Positions 17,519 to 58,289 of a DNA stretch of 64,000 nt are shown in pieces. The translations under genes were made by a program, and so were the position numbers. Source of the stretch: Candidatus Poribacteria bacterium (GTDB taxonomy: Bacteria > Abyssobacteria > SURF-5); the NCBI GenBank assembly GCA_016215705.1, contig JACRIR010000209.1, positions 1 to 64,000 on the forward strand. Reading direction: 5' to 3'. Below the pieces are notes generated by a model that saw nothing but the letters and a program-made list of their open reading frames with translations, was not told the DNA's origin and did no database searches. Each line of letters begins with the position of its first letter. Within the stretch, counting starts at the first letter, position 1.

Positions 17519-17555
17519 AATTCGGGGACACCATGCAGCATGGTGTCCCCGAATT
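17519..17555. repeat. GGGGACAC hairpin repeat, copy 1
   Basis: A perfect palindromic stem: outer AATTC/GAATT plus the 12-bp core GGGGACACCATG/CATGGTGTCCCC around a CAG loop. It stands between tRNA-Arg and tRNA-Lys. Confidence 0.9.
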
Positions 17556-17566
17556 AGCCCATCACC

Positions 17567-17639
17567 GGGCCGCTAGCTCAACTGGTAGAGCAAGTGACTC
17601 TTAATCACTAGGTTTGGGGTTCGAGTCCCCGGCGGCTCA
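17567..17639 (+). tRNA. tRNA-Lys (anticodon CTT)
   Basis: Acceptor GGGCCGC pairs with GCGGCTC (one G-T wobble). The stem GTGA/TCAC closes CTCTTAA, giving CTT. The T-arm has GGGGTTCGAGTCCCC and the discriminator is A. CCA is not encoded. Confidence 0.93.
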
Positions 17640-17677
17640 CCTGTTTGTAGATCGGTCGGAGGCTCCCGACCGTGCGG

Positions 17678-17763
17678 GGGCGGGTGGCGGAATCTGGCAG
17701 ACGCGCATGACTTAGGATCATGTGCCATTCGGCGTGCGGGTTCAATTCCCGCCCCGCCCACCA
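17678..17763 (+). tRNA. tRNA-Leu (anticodon TAG)
   Basis: Acceptor GGGCGGG pairs with CCCGCCC. The stem CATGA/TCATG closes CTTAGGA, giving TAG, and a long variable arm (GTGCCATTCGGCGT) marks it as class II. CCA is encoded at 17761-17763, unlike the other three tRNA genes here. Confidence 0.95.
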
Positions 17764-17844
17764 TCTCGCCTTGCCAAATCGTTGAAGCCATTAGGAGCGC
17801 GTGACCACGCCCGCGGCGTGGCTAATTGCGATAGAGACAGCGTG

Positions 17845-17892
17845 CCCATTACAGTCATTGCGAGCGGAGGGCCGCAGGCCCGAGCGAGGCAA
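17845..17892. repeat. CATTGCGAGC...GCAATCTC inverted repeat
   Basis: TCATTGCGAGCGGAGGG and CCCGAGCGAGGCAATC are partly complementary arms around a GGGCCGCAGGCCC core. It is a relative of the CATTCTGAGCGAAGCG repeats elsewhere in the window. Confidence 0.55.
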
Positions 17893-17966
17893 TCTCTCTT
17901 TTTTTGGCTTTCTCCCTTTCGCCTTGCTCCTTTCGCTTTACGCCTTTTCTTGGGAGGTAATCCATA

Positions 17967-19301
17967 TTGAAAGTCAACGTCGAAACTGTGTCCACTTACC
18001 AGAAAGTTCTCACCATAGAAATTCCATCTGAGACCGTTAATGCGGAGATAGAGAATATCTATTCCACGCTGTCCAAAACGGCCATTCATCCCGGCTTCCG
18101 CAAGGGAAAAGTTCCGCGCAAGATACTGGAAAAGAAATACAATAAATCCGTGCGGAACGAAGCGATTGAGAACACTGTGACCTCCTCGCTCAAGAGCGCA
18201 CTCGCTGATCAGAAGATTGTCCCGCTGGTCGAGCCTTCAATTGACGAAGTGAAATTCGACGACGGCGCTCCGCTCTCCTTTAAAGTCACGATCGAGGTCG
18301 AGCCCACGATCGAACTCGCCGAGTACAAGGGTATCGAGTTGAAGCGCCCCAAAATTCCCATCACTGACGAAGGCGTTAACCGGGTGGTCGAAAGGCTTCG
18401 GCTATCCCACGCCACTTACATACCCGTGGAGAGGGCGGTCGAAAAGGGTGATTTCATCGTAATTGATTTCGCCGGGTCCGAAGGCGGCAAACCGGTGGAA
18501 GGCTTGAAGGCCGAGAATTTCCCCGTCGAGGTCGGCGCCGGAGTCTTTGCCGGAGGCTTCGAGGACCAGCTCATAGGCATGCAGAAGAATGAGGCAAGGG
18601 ACGTCTCAGTCAAGTATCCGGAAGATTTTCGCACCAAGGAACTCGCCGGCAAGGACGTAACGTACCATGTGACCCTGAAGGACGTGAAACTCCGGAGGCT
18701 TCCCGACGTTGACGACGCCTTTGCCAAGGACCTCGGCGAGTACAATACTCTCGAAGACCTCAAGAAAAACGTGCGTGAGGGGCTCGAGAAGGATATGCAG
18801 AGACGCATCGAGCATCTCATGCGCGAGCAAGGGATCTCCAAGGTCGTTTCCGAATCGAAACTCGAGATTCCGCCCAAGCTGAAAGCTAGGGTGGCGGCCT
18901 CCATATTCGAGGAACAAGTAAGGTCATTGGCCAGTCGCGGTGTGGACCGCGAGACTATAACCGTTCAGCGCGATAAGATAGCCGAACAGGCGGCTGTCGA
19001 TGCCGAACGTCAGTTGAAAGCCAGGTTTGTAGCCGACGAGATAGCCCGGCGCGAAAACATCACCGTCACGACTGAGGAGTTGAATCAAAGACTCGAGGAA
19101 ATGATTGCATCGTCGGAGGACCAGACTCAGGCTAGAACCTACTTCAACAGCGAGCGTGTTCGCGAAAGCTCCCGTGACCAGATGCTGGCCCAGAAGATAT
19201 TGGATTTTGTGGTAAACAATGCTAGAATAATAGAAGTGGAATCGCCGCAAAGCGGGTCAGAATTACAGCCCGAACCAGATGAACAAGAAGGAGAAAGCTG
19301 A
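17967..19301 (+). CDS. tig: Trigger factor, ribosome-associated chaperone and prolyl isomerase
   Basis: The 444-residue protein has the three trigger-factor domains: the ribosome-binding domain (residues 1-115) with the signature GFRKGKVP, the FKBP-type domain around residues 155-240 ([18 protein letters not shown] through [11 protein letters not shown]), and the C-terminal chaperone arms. It binds beside the exit tunnel and shields nascent chains. Translation starts at TTG 17967, preceded by GGGAGG at the correct distance; no ATG gives the same N-terminus. The clpP start follows after two bases, so tig-clpP-clpX is one transcription unit, an arrangement common in bacteria. Confidence 0.97.
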
Positions 19302-19303
19302 AC

Positions 19304-19891
19304 ATGCCTCTCATAATACCAAGGATTGTGGAACAAGATGCCCGCGGTGAGAAGGGATGGGACATCATTTCTCGCCTGCTGAAAGATCGCATCATATTTA
19401 TCGGCGAAGCGATTGACGAGTGGGTTTCACAGTTAATCATCGCTCAGCTTCTGTATCTCGAAGCGGAAGACCCCGAGAAGGATATATATCTGTACATCAA
19501 CAGCCCGGGCGGTTACGTCACCGCCGGCCTTGCGATATATGACACCATGCAGTACATCCGCGCCAATATCTCGACTATTTGCCTTGGACAGGCCGCCAGC
19601 ATGGGCGCGCTCCTCTTGTGCGCAGGCACGAAAGGGAAACGTTTTGCCCTTCCATATGCTCGGATTCTAATCCACCAGCCGCTCGGCGGAGCCCGCGGCC
19701 AGGCTACCGATATTGAGATTCAGGCCAAGGAAATCCTGAAAGTGCGCGAGATAATAAACGAGATACTCGTAAAACACACGAGCCAGAAGGCGGAGAAAGT
19801 CCGCCAGGACACCGAGCGCGACTACTATATGTCGGCCCAGGAAGCGAAGGATTACGGCATCGTGGACGAAGTGCTCATCAAGAACAAATAG
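19304..19891 (+). CDS. clpP: ATP-dependent Clp protease proteolytic subunit
   Basis: The 195-residue serine peptidase has its triad at Ser99 (GQAASMGA), His124 (ILIHQPLGG) and Asp173 (ERDYYM). The [10 protein letters not shown] oxyanion-hole motif is intact and the length is normal. Fourteen subunits form the degradation chamber that works with ClpX encoded next. It starts two bases after the tig stop and ends 12 bases before clpX, indicating tight co-expression. Confidence 0.98.
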
Positions 19892-19903
19892 GCGGGAAAA
19901 CAC

Positions 19904-21154
19904 ATGGTATTTAACAGCGGAGAAGGAAGCGACGTGCCCACGTGCTCGTTCTGCGGAAAGAGGCAGGATGAGGTAAGGAAGCTGATCGCGGGGCCGATGG
20001 TGTATATCTGCGACGAATGCGTCGAGCTTTGCGGCGATATGCTCGAGGGCGAAACCCGCCCTGCAGCCGCTCCCGAGCGGCCAAAGGTTCCAAAACCGAA
20101 AGATATAAAGAAGATTCTCGACGAGTATGTGATTGGCCAGGAGCGCGCAAAGAAAATTCTCTCCGTTGCGGTTCATAACCATTACAAACGCATCGAGTTC
20201 GAGTTGGACGACGACGAAGTCGAGCTCCAAAAGAGCAACGTCCTGCTCGTCGGTCCGACGGGCTCCGGCAAGACCCTCCTCGCACAAACGCTGGCCCGCA
20301 TCATCGATGTCCCGTTCGCCATCGCGGACGCAACGACTCTCACCGAGGCCGGCTACGTCGGTGAAGATGTCGAGAACGTAATTCTGAAGCTTCTCCAGAA
20401 CGCCGACTATGACCCTGAACAGGCGGAAGTCGGGATCGTCTATATCGATGAGATCGACAAGATAGCGCGCAAGAGCGAAAACGTTTCCATCACGCGTGAC
20501 GTCTCCGGAGAAGGCGTTCAGCAGGCCCTCCTGAAAATATTGGAAGGCACGGTCGCCAACGTTCCCCCACAAGGCGGCCGCAAGCATCCTCAGCAGGAAT
20601 ACATCCAGGTGGATACAACAAACATCCTGTTCATTTGTGGCGGCGCCTTCGTTGGAATCGAGAAGATAATTGAATCGCGTCTGGGCAAGAACGTCATCGG
20701 CTTTGGCTCCGAGGCCAAACCGCGTGAGAAGAGGAAGGTTGGCGAGATTATCAAGCACATTCAACCGGAGGACCTGCTCAAGTATGGGATGATACCCGAG
20801 TTTGTCGGGCGTCTTCCCATCATCGCAACTTTCGATGAGCTTTCCGAGGCCGACCTGATCCGTATCCTGCAAGAGCCGAAGAACGCGCTCGTGAAACAAT
20901 ACAAGAAGTTCTTCGACATCGAGAACGTCAAGCTGACTTTCACCGAAGAAGCCCTTGCTGAAATCTCGCACCAGGCTATAGCCCGAAAGAGCGGGGCCCG
21001 TGGCCTGCGCGCCATCATGGAGGAGGTCATGCTCGACATCATGTATGAGACTCCCTCCAAGAGCGACGTGCGCGAATGCGTGATCACTGACGCTGTCGTG
21101 CGAAAGCAGGAAGAACCAAAGCTTGTGCACGTGACCCGAAAGCGTTCTGCCTGA
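19904..21154 (+). CDS. clpX: ATP-dependent Clp protease unfoldase subunit ClpX
   Basis: The 416-residue AAA+ protein starts with a zinc domain (Cys14, Cys17, Cys36, Cys39). Walker A is GPTGSGKT at 117-124, the GYVGE pore loop is near 150, Walker B is VYIDEID at 179-185, and sensor 2 is in KSGARGLRA. The IGF loop that docks on ClpP is visible as VIGFGSE. It unfolds tagged substrates and threads them into ClpP. A hairpin repeat begins two bases after its stop codon and may mark the transcript end. Confidence 0.98.
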
Positions 21155-21156
21155 CC

Positions 21157-21203
21157 GAGCATATTCGGGGACACGATGCCGCATCGTGTCCCCGAATATG
21201 CTC
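21157..21203. repeat. GGGGACAC hairpin repeat, copy 2
   Basis: The longest copy: outer arms GAGCATATTC/GAATATGCTC (10 bp) plus the 12-bp core GGGGACACGATG/CATCGTGTCCCC around CCG. It directly follows the clpX stop codon and could protect or terminate the mRNA although no T-run follows. Confidence 0.9.
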
Positions 21204-21228
21204 GCTCTTCCACAAGTACAAAGCAAGC

Positions 21229-21256
21229 GTCATTCTGAGCGAAGCGAAGAATCTCT
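21229..21256 (+). repeat. CATTCTGAGCGAAGCGAAGAATCTC repeat, single copy
   Basis: The bases from GTCATTCTGAGC to GAAGAATCTC equal the terminal inverted repeat of the GIY-YIG element at 25755-26116, here as a lone copy upstream of engB. Confidence 0.7.
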
Positions 21257-21280
21257 CCTGCATATTCTTGAGGCTCACCG

Positions 21281-21859
21281 ATGAAAATAACGTCCGCCGA
21301 ATACATCATCAGCGCTTTCGACAAGACCCAGTTCCCCCAGAATCGCCTCCCCGAGGTCGCCTTCGCCGGAAGGTCCAACGTCGGTAAGTCGTCGCTGCTG
21401 AACCGCCTGGCCGGCAAGGATATCGCAAGAATCAGCCGTACCCCCGGCAAGACCCGAGCGGTCAACTTCTTCCTTATGAATAACAAGTTCTATTTTGTTG
21501 ACCTGCCCGGCTATGGGTTTGCCCGCGTCTCAAAGAGCATGCGCCGCGGCTGGCACGAGTTGATAGAGGGATACATCAGTGGCAGGCCGAATCTGGCCGC
21601 CGTCATCGTCCTTATTGACAGTCGCAGAGAAGAGATTCCCGACGCCGATCTGCAAATGATCGACTACCTGTGTCACATCCGGATTTCGAGTATTCCCGTA
21701 TTTACGAAGATAGACAAGCTCAATCGGTCGGAACTAGCGCGCCTTAAGCAAGCTGCAATCCGAAAGCTTCCGGAGAGTTCCGAATCCATCTTCTTCTCCG
21801 CGGTCACATGCGAAGGTGTAGCGGATTTGTTGAACCGAATCGACGGATGTCTCCATTGA
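21281..21859 (+). CDS. engB: Ribosome biogenesis GTP-binding protein EngB/YsxC
   Basis: The 192-residue small GTPase has G1 GRSNVGKS at 30-37, the G2 threonine in SRTPGKTR, G3 DLPG at 74-77 within [10 protein letters not shown] and G4 TKID at 142-145. The family acts in assembly of the 50S ribosomal subunit and is usually essential. It lies 126 bases after clpX; the spacer contains the hairpin repeat and a CATTCTGAGC repeat, so it may have its own promoter. Confidence 0.95.
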
Positions 21860-23600: not shown

Positions 23601-25655
23601 TCATGGATTTCCGGCGGGCACATCGTAAATAAAAATGGAATAGCCGAGAACTTTCCTGGGTTTCAGCTTCTTGAGCCAGTCGTGGCAGTGTGGGTTGGCG
23701 AGATAGAGATTCTGGAGATAGGTGGCGCTTACAGCCCAGACGCCGGCAGAAGGCTCGCAACCATTGAGGTCGGCGTTGCTAAGGCCATAATACTCGAGCA
23801 CGCCCCGGGGACCGAAATACTTTATCTTCACGTCCCGGATTCTGTTTTCCTGCAAGTAGTTCATGAGATCGTTCAGATTCTGTCCCCAGTCGAGATTTGA
23901 ATCCACAAGATATTTGTATCCTTTACTCGGCCCGCCGATCATCTCATTGAAGTATGCAAGATAGTGTGGGTATATCCACGCCGCTGAGCCCGCGTACCAA
24001 ACACACAGAATCGCGAGCGCTCGTTTCCATCGTTTGGATTCAAAGGAGGCAACCTTCCCGGCAAAAATGCAAAGGAGTGGAATCAATGGAAGGATGTATC
24101 GGATGCCTATGTTTATCCGAGATGGCAGGGAGAAGAAACCGATCATGATCAGGATTGAAAACAAGAGGAAACGTTCGTCAAATGTCCCCTTCCCCCCTTT
24201 GCCAAAGGGGGACGAAATGGAGTTCTCCTTTACAGAAGGATGAATAGTCGACTCCCTCTTTGCAGAGGGGGGAACAGTCGAGTCGCTATTTACAAAGCAA
24301 CGAATGGCCGGGCTGCTCTTTACAGAGGGAGGAATAGTGGAGCCCTGCTCTGCAGAAGAGGGGACAACCTTGTCTTGTGGGCAGCCTTCTTGACTCCCCT
24401 TATGCAAAGGGGGGGAGGGGGGATTTGGAGAACAGGCTCTCTTTCCTCCTTTTTCAAGAGAGAATAATTTGCTGAGTGGTCGGCTCGATTTCAGGCTCGC
24501 CCCGGCAGCCGCAACCAGGCATATGATAAACGGAATCGGAGTCTTGATGAGAAAAGCCACCCAGTAGAAGTACCACCAGCCCGTTCGCGAGATTTCTCCA
24601 AACAGGAAATTGTCTTTCCACCCTTTTGCTGCCGCGAGCTGTGTATAAATTCCAAGGATGTATGAATATGCGGGAATGCGAATGCCACGCAAGGCCAGCG
24701 CATCGACTGCCTGCCAAAAAGGTTTTTCGGCGACCAGCCTCTCTGCCTGCGGTTTCAGCCATTGCGGCATGAAGGGGGTTCCAAACTGGAAGCCGTAACC
24801 AGCCCAGACAACACAGGAAGCTATAAGTAAGATCAGCAGGAGGCATAGTAAATCCCCCCTCCCCCCCTTTGCAAAGGGGGGTAATGAAAACCTGATTCGG
24901 AGGGGGATTGCCTTTTCCACTCTCTTCAAAGGTGTCCCTGTTTCCTCTCCTCGCAAAGGTTCCCCTGTTTCTCCCCTTTGCAAAGGGGGGGAGGGGGGAT
25001 TTACCAGCCGGAACAAGATAACTTCCAACAACAGAATCGGAATCAGAATGAGTCCCGTGAACTTCGACAAAAGCGCGAGACCCAACGCCATGCCCGTAAG
25101 AACCATTCGCACGGCTGAAGGCGCTTGGAGGTATTTGTGAAATGAGTACAGCGCCAGCGTCATGGTGAACGCAAGCAGCATATCAGGCGTGGCAAGCTTA
25201 CAGTGTGCGAGGATCGCCGGGCAAAGGGAATATAAAAACAGGGAAACCAGCGCTGCGCCGGAACCATAAATCTCTCTTCCCCAACGATACACCAGGAGCC
25301 CCAGCAGCGCCGAGAGAAAGACGAACGGAATGCGCGTAAGGAACATCATCAGGCGGGGAGATTGGCCGGATTCGAATATGAGCGATGGGCCTATATAGCG
25401 GCGGTAGACGTATTCCTTGTCCTCGAATCTGTCGGGATCGAGTTTCAACGGCAGGAGAAGAAGGCTGTTGACGTAATAGGGAAGCGGCGGATGCAATTGG
25501 AGCGCCACAATCTCCCAGTTCCTGGTTTCCAGCAACTGCCGGCCAATACCGATATAACTGGGCTCATCCCACGTGAGCGACGCGCGCCGCATGCTGCCCA
25601 CCGCAAGCGCGAGGTGAATTGCCAGTAGCGCGGCAACTGCGAGGCGGGTTCTCAT
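23601..25655 (-). CDS. GT39-type (ArnT/PMT-like) membrane glycosyltransferase with repeat-encoded insertions
   Basis: The 684-residue protein begins MRTRLAVAALLAIHLALAV, followed by the GT-C acidic motif TWDEPSY in the first periplasmic loop, about ten further membrane segments (FVFLSALLGLLVYRWGREIYG, ILRFAQ-free core, FILIMIGFFSLPSR) and a C-terminal soluble part with NLDWGQNLNDLMNYL. Such enzymes transfer a sugar from a polyprenyl carrier to protein or lipid. Two hydrophilic stretches, NPPSPPLQRGE to FAKGGRGD and NPPSPPLHKGS to FGKGGKGT, are encoded by repeat arrays at 24850-25002 and 24187-24428, both in loops and both in frame. I prefer ATG 25655; the frame upstream to 25700 is itself repeat DNA. 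The target is unknown. Confidence 0.8.
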   Translation of the reverse strand: MRTRLAVAALLAIHLALAVGSMRRASLTWDEPSYIGIGRQLLETRNWEIVALQLHPPLPYYVNSLLLLPLKLDPDRFEDKEYVYRRYIGPSLIFESGQSPRLMMFLTRIPFVFLSALLGLLVYRWGREIYGSGAALVSLFLYSLCPAILAHCKLATPDMLLAFTMTLALYSFHKYLQAPSAVRMVLTGMALGLALLSKFTGLILIPILLLEVILFRLVNPPSPPLQRGETGEPLRGEETGTPLKRVEKAIPLRIRFSLPPFAKGGRGDLLCLLLILLIASCVVWAGYGFQFGTPFMPQWLKPQAERLVAEKPFWQAVDALALRGIRIPAYSYILGIYTQLAAAKGWKDNFLFGEISRTGWWYFYWVAFLIKTPIPFIICLVAAAGASLKSSRPLSKLFSLEKGGKRACSPNPPSPPLHKGSQEGCPQDKVVPSSAEQGSTIPPSVKSSPAIRCFVNSDSTVPPSAKRESTIHPSVKENSISSPFGKGGKGTFDERFLLFSILIMIGFFSLPSRINIGIRYILPLIPLLCIFAGKVASFESKRWKRALAILCVWYAGSAAWIYPHYLAYFNEMIGGPSKGYKYLVDSNLDWGQNLNDLMNYLQENRIRDVKIKYFGPRGVLEYYGLSNADLNGCEPSAGVWAVSATYLQNLYLANPHCHDWLKKLKPRKVLGYSIFIYDVPAGNP
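24187..24428. repeat. In-frame array of six 30-bp units bounded by GC-rich palindromes
   Basis: From 24211 to 24390 the sequence repeats with an exact 30-base period, each unit holding a CTCTTTRCAGAGG-like mini-hairpin. On the coding strand this gives ten-residue units such as STIPPSVKSS, STVPPSAKRE and STIHPSVKEN. The array is bounded by CCCCCCTTTGCCAAAGGGGG (24191-24210) and by TGCAAAGGGGGGGAGGGG (to 24428). Confidence 0.85.
24850..25002. repeat. In-frame array of 27-bp units bounded by GC-rich palindromes
   Basis: The stretch starts with AAATCCCCCCTCCCCCCC and ends with AGGGGGGGAGGGGGGATTT, a terminal inverted repeat. Between them the coding strand has nine-residue units PLQRGETGE, PLRGEETGT and PLKRVEKAI. 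It is the second insertion of this type in the same gene. Confidence 0.8.
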
Positions 25656-25673
25656 GTCATTCCGGGACCATTT

Positions 25674-25784
25674 GGTGTCATTCTGAGTCCTCGGTGTCAC
25701 ATTCTGAGCCCTTTGGTGTCATTCTAGCCCTCGGCGTCACATTCTGAGCCCTTCGGTGTCATTCTGAGCGAAGCGAAGAATCTC
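25674..25784 (+). repeat. Tandem GGTGTCATTCTGAG units next to the GIY-YIG element
   Basis: Five units begin at 25674, 25693, 25715, 25733 and 25755, with lengths 19, 22, 18 and 22 bases, so the higher-order period is 40-41 bases. The last unit is the full 30-bp terminal repeat of the GIY-YIG element. The array occupies the upstream region of the GT39-type gene. Confidence 0.8.
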
Positions 25785-26116: not shown

Positions 26117-26191
26117 AGAGGGTTCAGAATGATATTTTGCGCTCAGAATGGCACATTACGCCCGCGATAACATAGATTTGTGTCTTGTTGC

Positions 26192-27220: not shown

Positions 27221-27256
27221 CGGCTACTTCTCCGGGAATTCCTTGCTCCTCTTTTC

Positions 27257-27297
27257 GTTATTCGGGGACACGATGTCGCATCGTGTCCCCGAATAAC
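27257..27297. repeat. GGGGACAC hairpin repeat, copy 3
   Basis: Outer arms GTTATTC/GAATAAC (7 bp) plus the core GGGGACACGATG/CATCGTGTCCCC around TCG. It lies between the two archaeal-type pathway genes, three bases after the stop of the first, and could modulate expression within the unit. Confidence 0.9.
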
Positions 27298-27299
27298 AG

Positions 27300-28094
27300 T
27301 TACTTCTCCAGGACCAGCTTTGCCTGCTTGGCGGTTGCTCCGTCGTGCACGATCTTGCCGATCGCCTCGACAATCTTCTCCGGATTCCTGTGCTGGAAAG
27401 CGTTCCGGCCTATTGAAACACCGGCCGCGCCCGCTCTAAGCGCATTCTCGACCATGATGAAAAGCTGCGCATCAGTCTCGACCTTCTCGCCACCCGCTAT
27501 GACGACTGGAACGGGGCAGCCCTTAACAACCTCCTGGAACGACTCGACGCTGCCCGTATAATTGCACTTGACGATGTCCGCCCCAAGCTCTGCGCCTACC
27601 CGCGCCGCATGCTTCACATATTTCACATCGTATTCGCTTTCGATCTTCTTACCCCTCGTATACAGCATGGCAAGGAGCGGCATCCCCCACTGGAAACATG
27701 TCGTGGACACTTGCCCGAAGTATTCCAGCATCTGTGTATCCTTCTCCGCCCCCAGGTTGATGTGGATGCTCACGGCGTCGGCGCCCAGCCTGACTGCTTC
27801 CTCCACCGTGCATACGGGAACCTTAGTGTTCGGGTCGGGGCTCATTGAAGTGCTGGCTGAGAGGTGAATGATGAGACCGACGTCTTTGCCACTGCCCCTG
27901 TGGCCGACTGCAACGATTCCTTTGTGAATTATGATCGCGTTGGCGCCGCCTTCGACCACCTTATCTATGGTTGTCGGCATATCGACCAGGCCCGCAATTG
28001 GTCCCATCGTCGTCCCGTGGTCCATGGGCACAATCACTGTCCGGTGCGAATTCCTGTCCAAAATCCTCTCGAGTCTTATCTTCTTGCCAATCAT
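27300..28094 (-). CDS. ADH synthase (archaeal-type class I aldolase, MJ0400-like) or GriI-like homologue
   Basis: The 264-residue protein is a DeoC/FbaB-type aldolase: [15 protein letters not shown] (Asp25, His26), then [29 protein letters not shown] with the family tyrosine, [10 protein letters not shown] with the Schiff-base Lys176, and PVVIAGGEK for phosphate binding. The known reaction joins L-aspartate semialdehyde to a ketose phosphate to give 2-amino-3,7-dideoxy-D-threo-hept-6-ulosonate, replacing the DAHP route to aromatic compounds. ATG 28094 follows AAGGAATCGCT; the longer frame to 28538 is overlap with the divergent glycosidase gene. It is the first gene of a two-gene unit. Confidence 0.92.
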
Positions 28095-28225
28095 AGCGAT
28101 TCCTTTCACAAAGATTTTATGATTATATACGCTCTCAATAGTTCTCAAAAGCTCAATGAACGAACGATATTCTACTCCATACCTGTCCGAAAAAGCAAAG
28201 AAACTCCTCAAATTCGGCCAATTTG

Positions 28226-28231
28226 CTATAA
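28226..28231 (+). promoter_or_regulatory. -10 box of a possibly leaderless glycosidase transcript
   Basis: TATAAT at 28226-28231 ends seven bases before the ATG at 28239, so transcription would begin at or next to the start codon. No clear -35 element or Shine-Dalgarno site is visible. Confidence 0.4.
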
Positions 28232-28238
28232 TGTTTTC

Positions 28239-29201
28239 ATGCCCTATTCTCCTTACGGCTATTACCTTTGGGATTTCTGGCTCATCCACGAACCACCCGA
28301 CTATCATCTCTTCCATCTGCAAGCGCCCCGCAACCTGCCGGATCCCGAGTTGCGTCACAACGCGGCCACAATCGGTCACGCGACCTCTTCCGATTTGCTC
28401 CACTGGACTGACAAAGGCGAAGTCATTGTTCCCGGCAAACCCGGCGAATGGGACGACCTGTCCGTATGGACCGGCAGCGTCATCAAGAGCGAGGGTCTCT
28501 ATCATATGCTCTATACAGGTCGCTGTCACGCGGATCAAGGGGCAATTCAGCGAATCGGCCTGGCCCGCTCAGGGGACCTTTTCAATTGGGAGAAACATCA
28601 AGGCAACCCCATCATGGAGGCGGACACGAAGCATTACGAGAAGTTTGGCTCGTGCGGCTACTACTGGGAATCGTGGCGCGATCCATACCTGCTCCATGAC
28701 CCGGTCGGCCACTGCCATTACGCATTCATTACCGCGCGCACAAATCAGGGCGAGCTTGATGAGAGAGGCTGCATCGCTGCAGCCAAATCGACAGACTTGT
28801 TTCATTGGGAAATCCTCCCACCGCTTTTCAGTCCCGGAAAGTTCACTGAGATGGAGGTCCCGCAAATTCTCGAATACGGAGGGAGAAATTATCTGCTCTT
28901 TTCAACTAACCCGTTCTGGTATGCGGCCAGCTATCTGAAGCGGACAGACCTCGTTCCGTGGGAGGGAGATCATTATGCTGTAGCTGATTCTTTTCTCGCT
29001 GAATATCGCATGGTCGGCGACGGCGTCCTCTCGCGCTCAAACGAACACGCATACGCCTCGAAGATCGTCATCGCTCCTTCAGGCGCGCTTGTCCTTTTGT
29101 CATGGCTTTCGAGATTGTCCGGCAGCGACGAGTTCGCAGGAGCGCTTTCGCGTCCGAAACCCATCCGCTTCAGTGCCGACGGAACGCCGCACATCGATTA
29201 A
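28239..29201 (+). CDS. Five-bladed beta-propeller glycosidase-like protein (GH32/GH43-type)
   Basis: The 320-residue protein shows the repeated blade pattern of clan GH-F/J enzymes: YHLFHLQAP, HATSSDLLHW, WTGSVIKSEGLYHMLYTG, IGLARSGDLFNW, ESWRDPYLL, AAAKSTDLFHW and EMEVPQILEYGG. The RDP motif and the acidic residue in EVPQIL occupy the places of the transition-state stabiliser and acid/base; Asp in LWDFWLIHE may be the nucleophile. Substrates may be fructosides, arabinosides or mannosides. No signal peptide is seen, so it is cytoplasmic. ATG 28239 is chosen since the upstream frame overlaps the divergent ADH synthase gene. Confidence 0.8.
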   Translation: MPYSPYGYYLWDFWLIHEPPDYHLFHLQAPRNLPDPELRHNAATIGHATSSDLLHWTDKGEVIVPGKPGEWDDLSVWTGSVIKSEGLYHMLYTGRCHADQGAIQRIGLARSGDLFNWEKHQGNPIMEADTKHYEKFGSCGYYWESWRDPYLLHDPVGHCHYAFITARTNQGELDERGCIAAAKSTDLFHWEILPPLFSPGKFTEMEVPQILEYGGRNYLLFSTNPFWYAASYLKRTDLVPWEGDHYAVADSFLAEYRMVGDGVLSRSNEHAYASKIVIAPSGALVLLSWLSRLSGSDEFAGALSRPKPIRFSADGTPHID

Positions 29202-32169: not shown

Positions 32170-34038
32170 TTAATGTGTCTCCCCCTCCTCCATCAATATG
32201 ATGACGCCTTCGATTTCCTTCGTGGCGCCGATCAAAGGCGAGCTGGTCACATGGCATTGTATCGCCTTGCCACGACGGCTTATGGCGTCCACGGTCGCTT
32301 CGTGAATGTCGGTTTCTCCGGCAAGCACTGCGCGAATGAGTCCTTTCAGTTGCTCGACCGGCAGCCCGATATCCAGATTCAGGAGGAACTGGTCCTTCAC
32401 CTCATCGGCCCGCAGTCCCCACAAGTCTTCCGCCTTCTTGTTCCAATTGGTGACTTTGAGGTTTCGGTCCACGACAACTACTCCCATGCGTACCCCGCCA
32501 ATAATGGATTCGAGGAAAGCGTTCATCTGATTCAGCATATCGGTGCGCTCGCGCAGCTCGTCATTGATCGTGTTCAGTTCCTCGTTGGTGGCTTGCAGTT
32601 CCTCGTTCATGGTTTCCATTTCCTCGCTGGAGGACTGGAGTTCCTCATTTGTGGTCTCGAGTTCTTCGACGGTAGACTGCAATTCCTCGTTTGTAGTCTC
32701 GAGTTCCTCGCTCGAGGATTGGAGTTCCTCATAGGCGCTCTCAAGTTCGTTCGTGGACTGTTCGCACTCGCGCTCCAACTGATTATAACGAGTTACGTCG
32801 GTGAATGTCATGCTCACGCCAAGGGAGATTCCGCTGCTGTCAAACAGAGGCACTAGATAGATATCCAAATACTGAGGTTCCCTTTCGGGGAAAGTTCGTT
32901 CCACGTTTGTGATGTAGACCGATCTCATCTCCGAATAAGCCTGTTTGATACGCGAACGGAGTTCCAACGGCCGATACGAAACTTCCAGTTCGTGAAAGGG
33001 TCGGCCCACATCCCTGATGTCCAGTCCGAACAGAGACAATGCTTCGGCATTCGCCATCGTCAGGTTCTCATTTTGGTCCACGACCATCTGCGCCGATGGA
33101 GCTCTCTCGAAGACAGCTTCCTGCAGTTGGGGGTACGGAGCCTGAAGCTCACGCGCCGCGGCGCAGCCGGCTTCGACCACGACTGGCGCGCGTCCTTGCA
33201 GACGGATAGCGCCGGGTGTCTTCTTGAAAATGCGGTATTTCAGGTTTGTCGGCACAAAGAGATTCGTGTGCGTGAGTATCATTTCCGCCTTACCCAGAAA
33301 GAGGAACCCGTCGTCATTGAGGGCGAAGTGCAGGCGGCTTAGTATCTTATTCTGAGTCTCGGAGTTGAAATACATAAGGGTATTGCGGCAAACGAGCAGG
33401 TCGATGCGCGAGATAGGAGAGTCCTTCATAACGTCATGAGCCCCGAAAATAGCAGAACGGCGAAATTCAGGCGAGAAGGCGTGACGGTCTTGTGCTCGGG
33501 TGAAGTATTTGTCTTTGAATTCGGCGGGGAACCCCTCCATTTGCGCGTCGCTGTAAAGCGCATGGCGCGCTTCATTCAAGGCGTTTTCGTCTATATCCGT
33601 GGCATATATCTTAACTCGTTTCTTGAACTGCTCCGCCCCCAAAGCTTCCGCAAACACGATGGCAAGGCTGTAAGCTTCCTCGCCCGAGGCGCAGCCCACA
33701 CTCCACACTCGGATGGGCTCCCCTTCCGGTTTTCCCTCGATTATCTGCGGGACAACTTCATGCGCAATGTATTCCCATGCGGGCGCATCCCGGAAAAAAC
33801 TGGTCACGTTTATCAGAATCGTATTGAACAGATGGGCGAACTCGTCGGGGTGTACCTCGAGGTAATCCATGTAATCGCCGTAGTCTTGTTTGTTCACCGT
33901 CTGCATTCTCTTGTTGACACGGCGCATCAGGCTCGTTCGCTTGTAACCGGTGAAGTCGAACCCGCGCTCCCTTTTTATGAATTCAAGGAGAGCTTCAAAT
34001 TTGGGGTCGTGCGCAGGGTCCTTCTTCTGGTCGGTCAT
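32170..34038 (-). CDS. cheR: CheR-type methyltransferase with coiled coil and PAS domains
   Basis: The 622-residue protein starts with a CheR all-alpha domain (FDFTGYKRTSLMRRVNKRM) and the SAM-binding catalytic domain: LFNTILINVTSFFRD, WSVGCASGEEAYSLA (the SAM loop), IYATDIDENAL and DLLVCRNTLMYF. A first PAS domain lies near 300-415, then a regular coiled coil of five 14-residue units (ELETTNEELQSTVE type) and a second PAS near 505-620. CheR methylates receptor glutamates; PAS-fused forms act in pathways other than simple chemotaxis. Its ATG overlaps the cheB stop by four bases. No MCP, CheA or CheW is nearby. Confidence 0.92.
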   Translation of the reverse strand: MTDQKKDPAHDPKFEALLEFIKRERGFDFTGYKRTSLMRRVNKRMQTVNKQDYGDYMDYLEVHPDEFAHLFNTILINVTSFFRDAPAWEYIAHEVVPQIIEGKPEGEPIRVWSVGCASGEEAYSLAIVFAEALGAEQFKKRVKIYATDIDENALNEARHALYSDAQMEGFPAEFKDKYFTRAQDRHAFSPEFRRSAIFGAHDVMKDSPISRIDLLVCRNTLMYFNSETQNKILSRLHFALNDDGFLFLGKAEMILTHTNLFVPTNLKYRIFKKTPGAIRLQGRAPVVVEAGCAAARELQAPYPQLQEAVFERAPSAQMVVDQNENLTMANAEALSLFGLDIRDVGRPFHELEVSYRPLELRSRIKQAYSEMRSVYITNVERTFPEREPQYLDIYLVPLFDSSGISLGVSMTFTDVTRYNQLERECEQSTNELESAYEELQSSSEELETTNEELQSTVEELETTNEELQSSSEEMETMNEELQATNEELNTINDELRERTDMLNQMNAFLESIIGGVRMGVVVVDRNLKVTNWNKKAEDLWGLRADEVKDQFLLNLDIGLPVEQLKGLIRAVLAGETDIHEATVDAISRRGKAIQCHVTSSPLIGATKEIEGVIILMEEGETH

Positions 34039-42179: not shown

Positions 42180-42252
42180 CTGTACTACTCATTTTCAAAA
42201 TCACAAATTCTTGTCGTGATTTCTTGCACGAACCTAACGCATATTAGTCACA

Positions 42253-42277
42253 CGGGCGCAATGAATTGCGCCCCTAC
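42253..42277. repeat. Palindromic repeat, left arm of an inverted pair
   Basis: CGGGCGCAATGAATTGCGCCC forms its own hairpin and ends CTAC. It is the reverse complement of 42299-42323 except for one covarying base pair. Confidence 0.75.
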
Positions 42278-42298
42278 AGACACGAATCAAGATGCTCC

Positions 42299-42323
42299 GT
42301 AGGGGCGCGATTCATCGCGCCCG
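42299..42323. repeat. Palindromic repeat, right arm of an inverted pair
   Basis: GTAGGGGCGCGATTCATCGC followed by GCCCG. Compared with the left arm, an A-T pair in the stem has become G-C on both sides. Confidence 0.75.
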
Positions 42324-42417
42324 ATTCGTGCTGTTTGGTTGCGGCTATGCTGCGCTGTACTACTCACGTTCGAAATCATGAATTCGTGTCGCAATTTCCT
42401 CTTCTTCTTTTTCGTAA

Positions 42418-46751: not shown

Positions 46752-46837
46752 GTCATTCTGAGCAAAGCGAAGAATCTCGGGGGAAATCGTTCAATATGCT
46801 CCTCAAAGAGGATTCTTCGCTTCGCTCAGGATGGCGG
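46752..46837. repeat. Inverted pair of CATTCTGAGC repeats, gene-less (MITE-like)
   Basis: GTCATTCTGAGCAAAGCG at the left and TTCGCTTCGCTCAGGATGGC at the right are imperfect inverted copies of the terminal repeat of the GIY-YIG element, with only about 30 bases between. It looks like a deletion derivative of that element. Confidence 0.7.
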
Positions 46838-46888: not shown

Positions 46889-48148
46889 ATGACGAAGAAA
46901 GTTTGTGTTCTCGGCCTTGGCTACGTAGGTCTGCCCACAGCGTGCATGTTTGCCGTACAGGGCTACCACGTTGTCGGTGTCGACGTAAAGCGCGAAGTTG
47001 TTGAAACCATCTCGAAGGGCTCGATCCACATAGAAGAAGCCGGCCTGAAAACGATGCTTCAGGCCGCAATAAACAGCCGGAATCTGGTTGCCCGAAACGA
47101 AGTCGAACCCGCAGACGTATTCATCATCGCAGTCCCGACTCCGCTTGCGCCGGACAAACGCGCCGATGTCAGCTTCGTGGAAAGCGCCGCCCGTTCGATT
47201 GTTCCTGTGCTGGCGCGCGGCAATCTCGTGGTCCTGGAGTCCACAGTCCCTCCCGGGACAACCAACGGTCTACTTTGCCGAATCCTTTCTGAGACGGGTC
47301 TGAATCCGGGTGTCGATTTCCATGTTGCGCACTCCCCGGAACGCGTGCTTCCGGGCAACGTTTTTAGCGAACTGGTGTCAAACGACCGCGTCATAGGTGG
47401 AATCACTCCCGAATCGGCCCAATTGGCGCGTGATCTGTACATGAGCTTTGTCGAAGGAGAGATACTCCTGACCGATTCGACTACGGCCGAGATGGTGAAA
47501 CTCACCGAGAACACTTTTCGCGATGTGAATATTGCCCTCGCCAATGAACTTGCCTTGATAGCAGCGGAATATGGTGTGGACATATTCAGCGTCGTCGCTC
47601 TTGCTAATCGGCACTCGCGTGTCAATGTTCATCAGCCTGGGCCGGGAGTCGGCGGCCATTGCATCCCGGTTGATCCGTGGTTCATCGTCGAGAATTCTAA
47701 TGAGGCGGGAAAACTCATCAGACGCGCGCGAGAACTTAATGATTCGATGCCGGAGCGTATTGTGCAACTCGTCGAACATGTCGTCGGGCCGGCTCAAGAC
47801 GCCAAGATCAGCGTCTGGGGCGTCGCCTACAAGGGAAACGTGGATGACACCCGCGAGACGCCGGCGGCGCCTATAGTTCATCTGCTGAGAAAGCGAAACT
47901 ATAAGATTAGCATATTCGATTTTCATGTCAGGAATTTCGAGTGCGAGATTGACAGCCTCGAGAGCGCGGTCAATGCGTCCGACGCTATTCTGCTGTTGGC
48001 GGACCATAAAGAATTCAAGTACCTCGATCCTCACGTGATCGGACAGAAAATGCGGCGCAGAATCGTCATAGATACGCGCAACTGTCTCGATCCCGCGAAA
48101 TGGAAGGGCGCCGGCTTCGATTTCCATCTTCTGTGGAAGAAACTGTAG
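46889..48148 (+). CDS. wecC: UDP-N-acetyl-D-mannosamine dehydrogenase (WecC-type)
   Basis: The 419-residue enzyme has an N-terminal NAD fold (VLGLGYVGLPTA, GxGxxG at 9-14), the central domain with KLTENTFRDVNIALANELALI, and the catalytic Cys258 in GPGVGGHCIPVDPWF; the C-terminal domain has VWGVAYKGNVDDTRETPA. The spacing and the ANRHSRVN and SPERVLPG motifs match E. coli WecC more than UDP-glucose dehydrogenase. It makes a UDP-N-acetylhexosaminuronate for the polysaccharide built by the following genes. Nucleotide-sugar epimerase is not in the window. Confidence 0.92.
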   Translation: MTKKVCVLGLGYVGLPTACMFAVQGYHVVGVDVKREVVETISKGSIHIEEAGLKTMLQAAINSRNLVARNEVEPADVFIIAVPTPLAPDKRADVSFVESAARSIVPVLARGNLVVLESTVPPGTTNGLLCRILSETGLNPGVDFHVAHSPERVLPGNVFSELVSNDRVIGGITPESAQLARDLYMSFVEGEILLTDSTTAEMVKLTENTFRDVNIALANELALIAAEYGVDIFSVVALANRHSRVNVHQPGPGVGGHCIPVDPWFIVENSNEAGKLIRRARELNDSMPERIVQLVEHVVGPAQDAKISVWGVAYKGNVDDTRETPAAPIVHLLRKRNYKISIFDFHVRNFECEIDSLESAVNASDAILLLADHKEFKYLDPHVIGQKMRRRIVIDTRNCLDPAKWKGAGFDFHLLWKKL

Positions 48149-48150
48149 GG

Positions 48151-48192
48151 GGAAAATTGGGGACACCATGCCGCATGGTGTCCCCGATTTTC
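48151..48192. repeat. GGGGACAC hairpin repeat, copy 4
   Basis: Outer arms GGAAAATT/GATTTTCC (8 bp, one T-G wobble) plus the core GGGGACACCATG/CATGGTGTCCCC around CCG. It begins two bases after the wecC stop codon. Confidence 0.9.
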
Positions 48193-48237
48193 CAAGTCGC
48201 CTGCGCGGGATTGATGAAAACGACAGACCTATAAGCC

Positions 48238-53753: not shown

Positions 53754-53760
53754 GATCAGC

Positions 53761-54972
53761 ATGAAAATCCTTCACGTTTTTTATGACATCGGCCGTCTGT
53801 CGGGCTATCAGATAAGAAGCAAATGCATCGTAGCCAATCAGCAAAAGCTGGGCCTGGACGTCAACGTCGCTTATCTTCCGAGGCGACCGGGCAATCGCGT
53901 CGAGACGGTTTTTGGCGGCGCACCCGCCTTCGGCCCTGACATTCCGCGAAATCTGAGGCGCTTGTTTGACTCAGAGACGCCCGTTCATATGCCGGAGGCG
54001 TTGCAGCGTTTTCTCACGCGGCGTTTGCTAAGGCTGCGGATAGGAGAGATTGCAGATACGACGCGACCGGATATCATCCATGCGCATTCATCCTGGATGT
54101 CTGCCGCCCAGGGTTTTGCTGTGGCGCGAAAGCTTGAGATTCCCTTTCTGTACGAAATGCGAGGTCTGTGGGAAGAAGATACAGCGCTGGAACAAAAAGG
54201 CAGCAAGTTGGGTTTCAGCTATCAGTATTTCAGAGCTCGCGAGAATCATCTTATTCGAAATTCTGACGCAGTAGTTGTTTTATCAGAAGGACTCAAGAAG
54301 GAGGTTGTTTTACGTGGCGCAAACCCTGAATGGGTCGGCGTTGTGCCAAACGGGGTTGATACCGATGAGTTTGTGCCGAGACCGCGTGATTCGCAGTTGG
54401 CCGAATCCCTCGGTTGCGGCGCAAGAACAATCGTCGGCTATGTCTCTTCTCTGCGGTTGCTCGAGGGGATACGGTACTTCATCGAGGCGCTGCCCAAAGT
54501 CGATAAGCAGGCATTCGCCCTCATAGTCGGCGATGGCCCTGAAAGAGATGCGCTCGAGAAACTCGTCAGCGACCTCGGCATCAATGACAGAATCAAGTTC
54601 ACCGGCGCAGTTCCGCACGCGGAAATAAAGAGGTATTACTCGATCATAGATATCTTTGTTGTTCCGCGAATCAATGTAAAATCATGCCATATTGTCACTC
54701 CCCTGAAACCGCTCGAGGCAATGGCTATGGGCAAATGCGTCGTCATGAGCGACGTCGGAGGGCTGAGAGAGTTGGCAAATGGAGACGAGACGGCAGTCTT
54801 CTTCAAACCGGAAGACAGCAGCGACCTCGCTGAAAAGCTCAATATGCTCATCGCGGACCGGGGATATCGACAGAAGCTCGGTGAAAACGCGCGCCTGCAT
54901 GTCGTCGAAAGAAAAGATTGGCGCAAGGTCGTAAAGGCATACCTCCCACTCTATGAGAAATTGGTCAGGTAA
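53761..54972 (+). CDS. GT4 family glycosyltransferase
   Basis: The 403-residue GT-B protein has KILHVFYDIGRLSGYQIRSK, ARPDIIHAHSSWMSA-type acceptor motif, VPNGVDTDEFVPR, LIVGDGPERDALEKLVSDLGIN, IKFTGAVPHAEIKRYY and TPLKPLEAMAMGKCVVMSDVGGL with the conserved glutamates. It starts seven bases after the methyltransferase stop and overlaps the next coding frame. PLKPLEAMAMGK is typical of hexose-transferring members. Confidence 0.9.
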   Translation: MKILHVFYDIGRLSGYQIRSKCIVANQQKLGLDVNVAYLPRRPGNRVETVFGGAPAFGPDIPRNLRRLFDSETPVHMPEALQRFLTRRLLRLRIGEIADTTRPDIIHAHSSWMSAAQGFAVARKLEIPFLYEMRGLWEEDTALEQKGSKLGFSYQYFRARENHLIRNSDAVVVLSEGLKKEVVLRGANPEWVGVVPNGVDTDEFVPRPRDSQLAESLGCGARTIVGYVSSLRLLEGIRYFIEALPKVDKQAFALIVGDGPERDALEKLVSDLGINDRIKFTGAVPHAEIKRYYSIIDIFVVPRINVKSCHIVTPLKPLEAMAMGKCVVMSDVGGLRELANGDETAVFFKPEDSSDLAEKLNMLIADRGYRQKLGENARLHVVERKDWRKVVKAYLPLYEKLVR

Positions 54973-55033
54973 GCAGCGCCGGGAGCAGCCCGGGAATGCG
55001 CAAACTCGCAATGGCGATCATACGAGCGATGTC

Positions 55034-56194
55034 ATGAACATCTGCATGTTGTTCCAGGAATATTATCCGTCTGACTTCCGCATTGAAAAGGAAGCGCGCA
55101 CACTTATCGGAGCGGGCCATAAGGTATTTCTCATTTGCCAGCGCAGGAAATCCGAACCACCTTATGAGACGGTTGACGGCCTGCGCATATATCGAGTGGA
55201 CGAATACCCCCTGCGAGGTGATCTGCTGTTCTTTCAAACTTTGTACTACAATCCGCGTCGGTTCCAAAGACTTTGCGAAATCATAGATTCTGAAAACATT
55301 CATGCGCTTCATGCGCACGACCTGCCGACCGTCCTTACAGCGGCTCGAGCCGCGAAGAAATACGGTCTCCCGCTTGTTTTCGACATGCGTGAAAACTATC
55401 CGGTCGGTATCCTCTACTGGAAGAAGCGGCGACCCTGGCATCTTCTTGTGAGCAACGTCTGGCTCGCCAGGCTGGCCGAAAGAATCTGCATAAGACTGGC
55501 CGACCGCATTATTGTGGTAAGTGACGAACAATGGGATCGCATGGTCTCCTTTGGAGCAGGCGATAAAACACGTATTATCATGAATACCGTTGATCTGTCA
55601 TTCCTTCATGCCAACGTGTCCAAAACTACGCCGAAACCGTTGCAGGGTTTTGTCGCCGTTTATACCGGCATGTTGAATCGTCACAGAGGACTTGATACTG
55701 TCATTTCGGCGATGCCCCTGGTTCGCAAATCTGTTCCTTCGGCAAGATTGAAAGTGGTCGGTGACGGCAACACCAAACCGGAATTAGAAAGACTGACAGA
55801 GCAACTCCATCTCAACGACTATGTTGAATTTCTCGGGTGGGCCGATATTCCAACAATGTACGGACACATACAAGAAAGCAGCGTCGGCGTCATACCACAT
55901 CGAAAGAATCCGCATACGGATTCAACTATCCCAAACAAATTGTTCGACTACATGGCCTTGGGAAAACCTGTCGTCGCGTCTGATCTCAAACCACTGCGGC
56001 GAATAATAACTGAAACTGATTGCGGTCGCATATTCCAGCCGGACGATCCGAAATCATGTGCTCAAGCGCTTATCGAGTGCAGCGACTTATCGCGTGCAAC
56101 GGCTTTTGGGAAAAACGGCCAGAGATTCGTGGCCACAAAGTACAATTGGCAGACGGCCGCAAACACTCTCCTGGACGTCTACAGATCTTTGTAA
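55034..56194 (+). CDS. GT4 family glycosyltransferase
   Basis: The 386-residue protein has MNICMLFQEYYPSDFRIEKEARTL, IHALHAHDLPTVLTA, LVFDMRENYP, VYTGMLNRHRGLDTVI, KVVGDGNTKPELERL and TIPNKLFDYMALGKPVVASDLKPLRRI. The NKLFDYMALGKPV motif matches UDP-sugar-using members of the family. ATG 55034 is chosen over 54953 because it matches the family start and follows GAGCGATG. It lies 61 bases after the previous GT4 gene. Confidence 0.88.
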   Translation: MNICMLFQEYYPSDFRIEKEARTLIGAGHKVFLICQRRKSEPPYETVDGLRIYRVDEYPLRGDLLFFQTLYYNPRRFQRLCEIIDSENIHALHAHDLPTVLTAARAAKKYGLPLVFDMRENYPVGILYWKKRRPWHLLVSNVWLARLAERICIRLADRIIVVSDEQWDRMVSFGAGDKTRIIMNTVDLSFLHANVSKTTPKPLQGFVAVYTGMLNRHRGLDTVISAMPLVRKSVPSARLKVVGDGNTKPELERLTEQLHLNDYVEFLGWADIPTMYGHIQESSVGVIPHRKNPHTDSTIPNKLFDYMALGKPVVASDLKPLRRIITETDCGRIFQPDDPKSCAQALIECSDLSRATAFGKNGQRFVATKYNWQTAANTLLDVYRSL

Positions 56195-56205
56195 AGGCGC
56201 TTCAA

Positions 56206-58188
56206 TTGGCAAATAAACCCAAGAAAAGAAGAAGTTTTCCGCAACCGTCGAGCGTGCCGGCAAGCAGTAAACCCAAGTCCGGCCCGCGTCACAGCCTGCA
56301 AACTGCCATTGTGGCCCTAATCCTGCTTGCGAGCATATTCCCTTATCTCAACATCTTCAAGAACGATTTTGTCGGATACGATGATCAGAATCTGATTCAG
56401 AATAATAGGGAAATTCATAGCCTCACGCCGGAAAACGTCGCCCATATGTTTGTCCCGCGCACGCGAGGCAATTACCAACCGATCCGTACGCTCTCCTATG
56501 CGGTCGACTACGCTGTTTGGGGTGCGCGCCCCTTCGGATTTCACCTTGCAAATCTGCTTCTCCATGTCGTGACGGTCGTTGGAGTGTGGTTGCTGATTCG
56601 CCATTTGATGCCGGAACCCCTTCCCTTTCTTGCCGCATTGATTTTCGCGGTTCATCCCATTCATGTCGAGAGCGTGACGTGGATGTCGGCGCGCAAAGAC
56701 GTGCTTTCGCTGGCTTTTTTCCTGCTTGCAATCCTCGCCTACGAGAAATCACAAGACAAACAAGGTTGCGAATACGCCACGCAACCGTTGCAAGATATGA
56801 AACGACCCCGCAGGGACATGGCTCGCCGTTCCCCGGCGAACGGAATCAACGATTCTCGGACCGCTTCCCTTCCCTTGTACCTGGCCTCGATTCTCTTTAC
56901 CGGCCTGGCGCTCCTCTCGAAATTGACGGCGCTATCCCTGCCTCTTTGCATTTTGCTGCTCGAAATCTGCCGCGACGGCTGGCCGAAGGTCGGCGGATTC
57001 GCTCGAAAAGTCGTCCGCCTTGCGCCGCACATTCTGCTGGCATGCGCCGTAGTCATATTGAACTTCATGCGCTTCGGAGTCGCATCATCACACGGCGATG
57101 CGCTCGCGGGTCTTGAGGGAACGTCCGGCGCATTAACGCACGACATAAGGCTGAGCATGCCGCTCGTCGTCTGCCGATATATCGGCCTCCTTATCTTGCC
57201 TTATGGTTTGGTCACTCACTATGATGTGGCTCAGATATCGCAAATCTCTGACTTGCGGGCTTTCATTCCCATTCTAGCGCTCGCCGCAATGATTGTGTTC
57301 GGCGCTCTTTGCTTCATCAGGGGCCGAAGAGCACAGGCCTTCGGTATTGGCTGGTTTGTCATTACCTTTCTGCCGACGTCCAACATCTTTCCAACGGCTT
57401 CAATGATGAACGACCGCTACATGCACATTCCGTCCGTTGGGTTCGCAACGCTGCTTGCAATGGCCTTGTCGTACCCGGCGATAGGGATGTCTAAGAATCG
57501 GATATCGACGATCAGGATGATCACGATCATGCCCGCCGTCATCATCGTATTGCTGTTCTCCGTTCTCACGATTCGCCGTAATGCCGACTGGCGTGACACA
57601 ACGGCTCTATTCACCCGTACTCTTCGCATGAACCCCAGGAGCGTCCAGGCCCGTCTCACTCTCGGGGCAATGAGCGCCAAGTCTGGCGATTATGACTCCG
57701 CCATCAAGATGTATCGTGATGCGCTTGAAATAGAGCCGGGTGATTATCGCGTTCTCTATAACCTCAGCATATCGTATCAGAAGGAGGGTCTGAATCTTTT
57801 GGCCGTCAAGGCCCTCGAGGAATCGCGTGAGTCAAACCCGGATTTTCTGCCAACGCGGTTCAACCTCGCTGTGGCCTATCATGAGCAAAGGCGCTATGAA
57901 CAAGCCATCGCGGAGCACAAGGAAGTTCTTCGGCTTTCCCCCGTAAACGCCGCCTCCCACGGCGACCTCGGTCGCATCTACTCTGAACTCGGCGACATGC
58001 AAACAGCCCTTAAGGAACTGAACCTGGCCTTGAGCATAAAACCAGACCTGATACCCGCTCTCATCGACAGGGCGGATTTGCTTGTTCGGCAAGGTCGGCG
58101 TGAAGAGGCTGAGATGGACTTTCAGCGACTTGAAGCTCTGGGGGTCAAAACCGGGGATTTGCGGCGTTCAATGCCAATGTCAAATTAA
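56206..58188 (+). CDS. TMTC-like membrane glycosyltransferase with C-terminal TPR repeats
   Basis: The 660-residue protein begins with a basic tail, then membrane helices with the motif FVGYDDQNLIQNN in the first loop (acidic pair of GT-C O-mannosyltransferases, as in eukaryotic TMTC proteins), YQPIRTLSYAVDYAVWG, and HPIHVESVTWMSARKDVLS, the best conserved block of the family. About ten helices end near residue 460; TPRs follow (ARLTLGAMSAKSGDYDSAIKMY, NLAVAYHEQRRYEQAIAEHKEVL). Start TTG 56206 is inferred; ATG 56020 lies inside the preceding gene. Residues 185-222 are hydrophilic and derived from sequence rich in hairpins, possibly an insertion. Confidence 0.83.
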   Translation: MANKPKKRRSFPQPSSVPASSKPKSGPRHSLQTAIVALILLASIFPYLNIFKNDFVGYDDQNLIQNNREIHSLTPENVAHMFVPRTRGNYQPIRTLSYAVDYAVWGARPFGFHLANLLLHVVTVVGVWLLIRHLMPEPLPFLAALIFAVHPIHVESVTWMSARKDVLSLAFFLLAILAYEKSQDKQGCEYATQPLQDMKRPRRDMARRSPANGINDSRTASLPLYLASILFTGLALLSKLTALSLPLCILLLEICRDGWPKVGGFARKVVRLAPHILLACAVVILNFMRFGVASSHGDALAGLEGTSGALTHDIRLSMPLVVCRYIGLLILPYGLVTHYDVAQISQISDLRAFIPILALAAMIVFGALCFIRGRRAQAFGIGWFVITFLPTSNIFPTASMMNDRYMHIPSVGFATLLAMALSYPAIGMSKNRISTIRMITIMPAVIIVLLFSVLTIRRNADWRDTTALFTRTLRMNPRSVQARLTLGAMSAKSGDYDSAIKMYRDALEIEPGDYRVLYNLSISYQKEGLNLLAVKALEESRESNPDFLPTRFNLAVAYHEQRRYEQAIAEHKEVLRLSPVNAASHGDLGRIYSELGDMQTALKELNLALSIKPDLIPALIDRADLLVRQGRREEAEMDFQRLEALGVKTGDLRRSMPMSN

Positions 58189-58244
58189 GAAAATCGGAAA
58201 AATGATGCGACATTAGGAAAGGTAGAGAACGCGATGCGACACTG

Positions 58245-58289
58245 AGAAAAATCGGGGACACGATGCCGCATCGTGTCCCCGATTTTTCT
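58245..58289. repeat. GGGGACAC hairpin repeat, copy 5
   Basis: Outer arms AGAAAAATC/GATTTTTCT (9 bp) plus the core GGGGACACGATG/CATCGTGTCCCC around CCG. A T-rich end gives it the look of an intrinsic terminator for the TMTC-like gene 57 bases upstream. Fragments of its half occur at 58231-58242. Confidence 0.9.

Follow-up and report, generated by a model that had tools for sequence, protein, structure and literature searches.

The window analysed in this study is a stretch of 64,000 nucleotides from a Candidatus Poribacteria bacterium (it belongs to contig C148 in a draft genome of 5.47 Mb, the assembly of which is 92% complete). It contains five copies of a dispersed hairpin, all of which were found where the initial annotation had placed them (Table 1). 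Copies 2 and 4 each start 2 nt past the stop codon of an open reading frame (ORF) on the + strand (19904-21154 and 46889-48148, respectively), and copy 3 lies directly beyond the stop codon of an ORF on the - strand (27300-28538). The outer arms of the five hairpins had been described as 5, 10, 7, 8, and 9 bp long and complementary in every copy. The measured lengths are 5, 11, 7, 7, and 9 bp; the five pairs of copy 1 are followed by one mismatch, and the seven of copy 4 come after a T.G mismatch. When Rfam covariance models were run against the window, the tRNAs alone were matched and none of the hairpins was. The hairpins form a family of REPIN-like, non-autonomous elements that belong to the Y1/RAYT 'TIRYT' kind; their outer arms covary, but the core decays without compensation.

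For the collection of copies, 1.85 Mb of the genome was read. I found 172 copies with at most 4 mismatches in the core, 96 of which are exact. The core is 27 bp in length and reads GGGGACAC-SATG-NNN-CATS-GTGTCCCC; its reversed control pattern had zero occurrences. In the whole genome, 332 and 328 occurrences of the half-core GGGGACACNATG were counted on the two strands, versus 0 for its reversed control. Among 76 exact copies, the pairing of the arms outside the core is 0.92-0.99 at positions 1-7, 0.80 at position 8, 0.47 at position 9, and 0.32 at position 10, with chance levels further out. The same trend, ending near position 8, was seen in 18 newly read copies. Thus, the arm length is not free, as pairing stops sharply at position 8, and the whole element is a 43-bp palindrome with a 3-nt loop (folding energies of -30 to -41 kcal/mol). 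The outer arms had been thought to differ completely between copies, but they are AT-rich beside the core, follow a consensus of about S-N-W-W-A-W-T-C, and fall into a few classes ending with TTATTC, TAATTC, AAAATC, or ATATTC. Random host sequence was ruled out as the nature of the arms because the positions within them are linked into few haplotypes. The swap of C-G and G-C in the inner stem, which had been noticed earlier, is real (61 GC and 56 CG in 124 copies).

A close position behind stop codons was also claimed, and it holds as a tendency: 49 of 90 copies have an ORF end no more than 60 nt away, and 23 have a start at such a distance. Few copies are present in the gaps between divergent genes. 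While ORFs cover 83% of the sequence, 106 of 145 copies are located outside ORFs, an extragenic placement that REP-like repeats commonly show. The hairpins may have a role at transcript ends, although the sequence pattern does not require it. Truncated units of the form arm-GGGGACAC-SATG-CNG- stand in front of some copies. The scan gave 30 such cases, of which a few are doubtful, and almost all are oriented head to tail; the three listed as inverted seem spurious. The half-units ahead of copy 5 in the window resemble arrays elsewhere in the genome. Another palindrome, TCCCGCC..GGCGGGA, lies within the tip of hairpin copies in L154 (around 5770) and L019 (around 5667), and also within a copy with GCTAATTC arms.

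Covariation was assessed in 124 non-redundant copies, with one composite host repeat excluded. Two-sided changes were found at all 8 arm pairs, several of which have at least four pair types. The covariation score of the arms is 0.670, as compared with 0.177 ± 0.013 for shuffled arms (0 of 500 shuffles reached 0.670) and at most 0.193 when the arms were slid out of register. Among copies of a single inner-arm class, the pair at position 7 is matched in 90% versus 46% with permuted right arms, the maximum in 2000 permutations being 64%. The core differs from the arms. Core pairs 1-8, which form the GGGGACAC block, have zero two-sided changes in the 124 copies and show one-sided decay only, and a looser set gave 85 one-sided versus 2 two-sided changes. 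Core pairs 9 and 10 vary by subfamily (G-C/C-G and A-T/T-A, respectively). The initial annotation had reasoned that random decay would break the pairing, and thus that either the fold is conserved or the element inserts at hairpins that were already there. It was revealed that decay does break the pairing of the core and is left unrepaired, so the compensatory changes throughout the stem that would mark a structured RNA are absent from core pairs 1-8. Since the arms covary but the core decays uncompensated, the fold is not maintained, and it is likely that the arms are made symmetric at birth. An asymmetric core with T.G at pair 8 and the loop CCT was found in 10 copies. Because this core has multiplied with several arm types, the core seems to be copied whole, while the arms are remade.

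Insertions into other repeats suggest how the arms may arise. A host repeat with two palindromes (GGGCGCAATGAATTGCGCCC .. GGGCGCGATTCATCGCGCCC) is dispersed in many copies; the one in the window has no insert, and many other copies carry the hairpin. The host repeat reads ..CAAGAAACGCTG.. or ..AAGAAATCCTG.. without the insert and ..AAGAAAATC-core-GATTTTCT.. with it. The similarity between hairpin flanks and empty host copies reaches into one of the arms, with a mean of about 3-4.5 of 8 bases; on the other side, it is 1.5-1.9 in most copies, the expectation from other hosts being 2.38. Most of the host-repeat similarity ends short of the arm, so only two host families are informative. In L163, an older copy is interrupted at CATCGTG^TCCC by a hairpin with its own arms (TTTATTG/CAATAAA). 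The arm CAATAAA is followed by CACG, which is the inverse of CGTG across the hairpin, and then by TCCC. Similar 5-nt extensions past the six inner arm bases, into the tail of the older unit, were found in L151, L161, and L087. In G067, the right-hand AAAAATCC is common to G066, and the left TTTT is new. It had been proposed earlier that the element inserts at the tips of hairpins that were already there. Both the one-sided similarity to the host and the CACG extension of L163, a new inverse copy of CGTG, speak against that proposal. In 59 other genomes checked for empty sites, including two of the same family, zero exact copies were found.

The following mechanism is proposed. The element would be composed of two GGGGACAC-SATG ends fused head to head around a 3-nt loop. 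Its moving form would be a self-folded single-stranded DNA with a 27-nt hairpin core, a recessed 3′ end, and an AT-rich 5′ tail of about 6-7 nt (...WWAWTC). Once the transposase had joined this tail to the target, a polymerase would extend the recessed 3′ end, which would be paired beside the tail, first on the tail itself and then over 0-5 nt of the target flank, followed by closure to the other side. Each new copy would thus have an exact second arm from the outset. Any one-sided alteration of the tail would turn into a two-sided change in the offspring, while the core would be inherited unchanged, mismatches included. After insertion, the copies would decay neutrally. I put the probability of a non-autonomous TIRYT/RAYT miniature element with fill-in copying of the arms at roughly 0.55. 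It is more tentative, at somewhat below even odds, that there is a Y1 pathway in which 3′-end fill-in on the 5′ tail and the target flank produces an inverted, not direct, target duplication and stem covariation without selection on the stem.

A link to a single-strand Y1/REP-type transposase had been suspected, and a search for RAYT genes with matching ends was suggested. The analysis supports this link. The genome has three Y1 (PF01797) matches. Two of them are RAYT copies on contig C28 whose DNA is 98% identical, although the left end of one copy is lost to the contig end. The C28 gene sits between TTATTCC-GGGGACATAATACCTATTT and its inverse. These inverted ends have a hairpin-type arm (TTATTCC) and a block that differs from GGGGACACGATGCC by three transitions. 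Thus, the two genes bear TTATTCC-GGGGACATAATACC ends of the matching arm type, in which GGGGACATAATACC is related, but not identical, to the core ends of the hairpin. Four GGGGACATAATACC ends were seen, and their flanks (TTTATTCC, TATTATTCC, CTTATTCC, and CCTAATTCC) are of the arm types found in the hairpins. The third RAYT has GGGGTCAGGTCTTGAA ends, which are of the GGGGTCAGG type, and a DnaA-like C-terminus. Matches of the RAYTs to NCBIfam NF047646 scored 56 bits (under the cut-off of 80) and 82 bits. Judging from these ends, the C28 RAYT may be the mover of the hairpins.

The family is of a known kind (TIRYT/REPIN-like) and novel in form. TIRYTs correspond to RAYT group 1 and to subclass 2.1 in PMC6006769, and a DnaA-like C-terminus has been described for them (PMC6006769). 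They are Y1 genes with inverted ends of the consensus GGGGWSAS (Di Nocera et al. 2013, PMC3733652), and these ends are also dispersed as REP-like repeats, some of which are self-complementary. A GGGGWSAS start is present as GGGGACAC in all intact hairpin copies. Unlike in TIRYTs, both ends are fused here in one 43-bp palindrome, in which the arms that covary lie outside GGGGACAC, and the ends of the local RAYTs are GGGGACAT, not a strict GGGGWSAS. A GGGGACA in PMC4853749 turned out to lie only in a PCR primer. REPINs (PMC3116915) likewise have two inverted units in one hairpin, are non-autonomous, and spread between genes; their reported excision product is 5′-tailed, and compensatory changes were noted in their spacer. 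The present hairpins vary in the outer arms, whereas REPINs vary in the inner spacer, and neighbouring half-units are head to tail here, not inverted. The GTAG-type tetranucleotide beside the REP hairpin of REPINs is absent in this family, and the tag is GGGGACAC instead. The GTAG/CGTC REP elements (PMC3733652) are also short, dispersed, extragenic palindromes with a high copy number, but the present family has a different tag (GGGGACAC) and forms a near-perfect palindrome with a 3-nt loop. IS200/IS605 elements share the Y1 transposase, the single-strand hairpin ends, and a short target motif beside the left end. However, they are not known to have inverted ends and inverted flanks, unlike the hairpin family.

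The same core was found in metagenome-assembled genomes of Elusimicrobia, of Syntrophales and other Deltaproteobacteria, and of one Acidobacteriota; one alphaproteobacterial match differs in the centre. The Elusimicrobia cores have no paired arms, and the Deltaproteobacteria have both armed (5-12 bp) and armless cores. Unpaired arms in further copies had been named beforehand as a finding that would count against the paired fold; they are not the rule in the present genome, but they do occur in Elusimicrobia. In two Elusimicrobia genomes, RAYT genes (L177 711-1984 and L180 705-1992) have longer perfect palindromes on either side, GGGGACACAATACCTATTTC..GAAATAGGTATTGTGTCCCC, starting with GGGGACACAATACC. 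One gene of three Deltaproteobacteria/Syntrophales genomes (L066, L187, and L074) harbours hairpins at an identical site, and their arms differ (GGATAAAT/ATTTATCC and TTTTAAT/ATTAAAA), and a second spot in this gene is empty in one genome. From the reading of the sequences, these inserts are apparently in frame.

Table 1. Hairpin copies and related features in the window (positions of the whole stretch)
Feature	Position	Strand	Description
Hairpin copy 1	17516..17558	no strand	Core 17524-17550, CATG type, loop CAG; flanked by tRNA-Arg and tRNA-Lys
Hairpin copy 2	21157..21203	no strand	Core 21167-21193, GATG type; arms paired over 11 bp
Hairpin copy 3	27256..27298	no strand	Core 27264-27290, GATG type, loop TCG; arms paired over 7 bp
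Hairpin copy 4	48151..48193	no strand	Core 48159-48185, CATG type; 7 of 8 arm pairs, T.G adjoining the core
Hairpin copy 5	58245..58289	no strand	Core 58254-58280, GATG type; arms paired over 9 bp
Two decayed half-units (GAAAATCGG-AAAAATGATGCGACATT and GAACGCGATGCGACACT)	58187..58244	+	Head to tail ahead of copy 5, as read from the letters
Sixth hairpin copy, decayed	6070..6112	no strand	Core 6078-6104, 3 mismatches
Solitary left half-core GGGGACACCATG, decayed copy	16106..16125	-	
Host two-palindrome repeat without hairpin	42228..42358	no strand	Serves as an empty site

The window also contains other repeats. A dispersed repeat, GTCATTCTGAGCGAAGCGAAGAATCTC, is present at 21229-21255, 25758-25784, and 46752-46778, and several near-perfect inverted repeats of the GTAAATCCCCCCTCCCCCCCTTTGCAAAGGGGGG type lie at 24173-25004. 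The 21-nt tandem repeats at 32534-32764 are within an ORF on the - strand (32170-34038) and likely encode a repetitive protein segment.

Other explanations of the covariation were weighed against fill-in copying. Selection for mobility, in which only copies with paired arms have moved and compensatory double changes persist, would need no fill-in. It is in line with the arm covariation, and the compensatory changes in the REPIN spacer were attributed to selection in PMC3116915. I consider it unlikely because two-sided variation exists at every arm pair, several having at least four pair types, because the mismatched core (T.G and the CCT loop) moved many times, and because the extension of L163 copies a target sequence that was present beforehand. 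It is less likely still that the element was inserted at pre-existing hairpins or short palindromes, so that the arms are older than the core. In its favour, most copies are complementary at positions 7-8 regardless of the sequence there, and other palindromes (TCCCGCC..GGCGGGA) occupy the tips of some copies; REPs are known targets of insertion sequences (title of PMC1525189). It does not fit, however, with the one-sided host similarity or with the insert-free copies of the host repeat, all of which lack the palindrome. Moreover, older units broken at CATCGTGT continue across the hairpin with AC, not with their own CCCC, and the core of Elusimicrobia stands in unpaired surroundings.

An RNA fold selected by the host, either a terminator or an mRNA stabiliser, might keep the covariation as well, and the clustering behind stop codons and the folding energies would suit it. 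For the core, this was rejected since compensation is absent: its pairs decay uncompensated. The copies in the window have no T run after the stem, and copies also exist in a tRNA spacer and, in other genomes, inside a gene. Such a fold is therefore very improbable as the cause. Equally little weight is given to an ongoing correction of quasi-palindromes by strand-switching in replication. This process would produce two-sided changes without selection, and the orthologous pair L067 and L186 does differ on both sides at position 1, but it should also alter the core, of which pairs 1-8 have no two-sided changes.

Several observations weigh against the proposed mechanism. No transposase with exact GGGGACACSATG ends was found in the genome (92% complete), and the C28 genes carry GGGGACATAATACC. 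The copies in the host repeat may derive from one event. The in-gene site of Deltaproteobacteria has a history more complex than a single fill-in. Arms and cores are partly linked, so the contributions of the tail and the target to the arm are uncertain, and at positions 9-10 the overall pairing does not clearly exceed that in permuted arms.

The 27-bp core that is common to several phyla suggests a widely shared system of element and transposase. Excised REPINs were reported to have a 5′ tail and a 3′ end that is about 6 bp short, and the question of how symmetry is restored was left open (Bertels and Rainey 2011, PMC3116915). That the arms are remade but the core is not points to a simple 3′-end fill-in step as an answer to this question. 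Stem covariation in bacterial repeats can come from a copying mechanism, and it is alone no evidence for a selected RNA structure.

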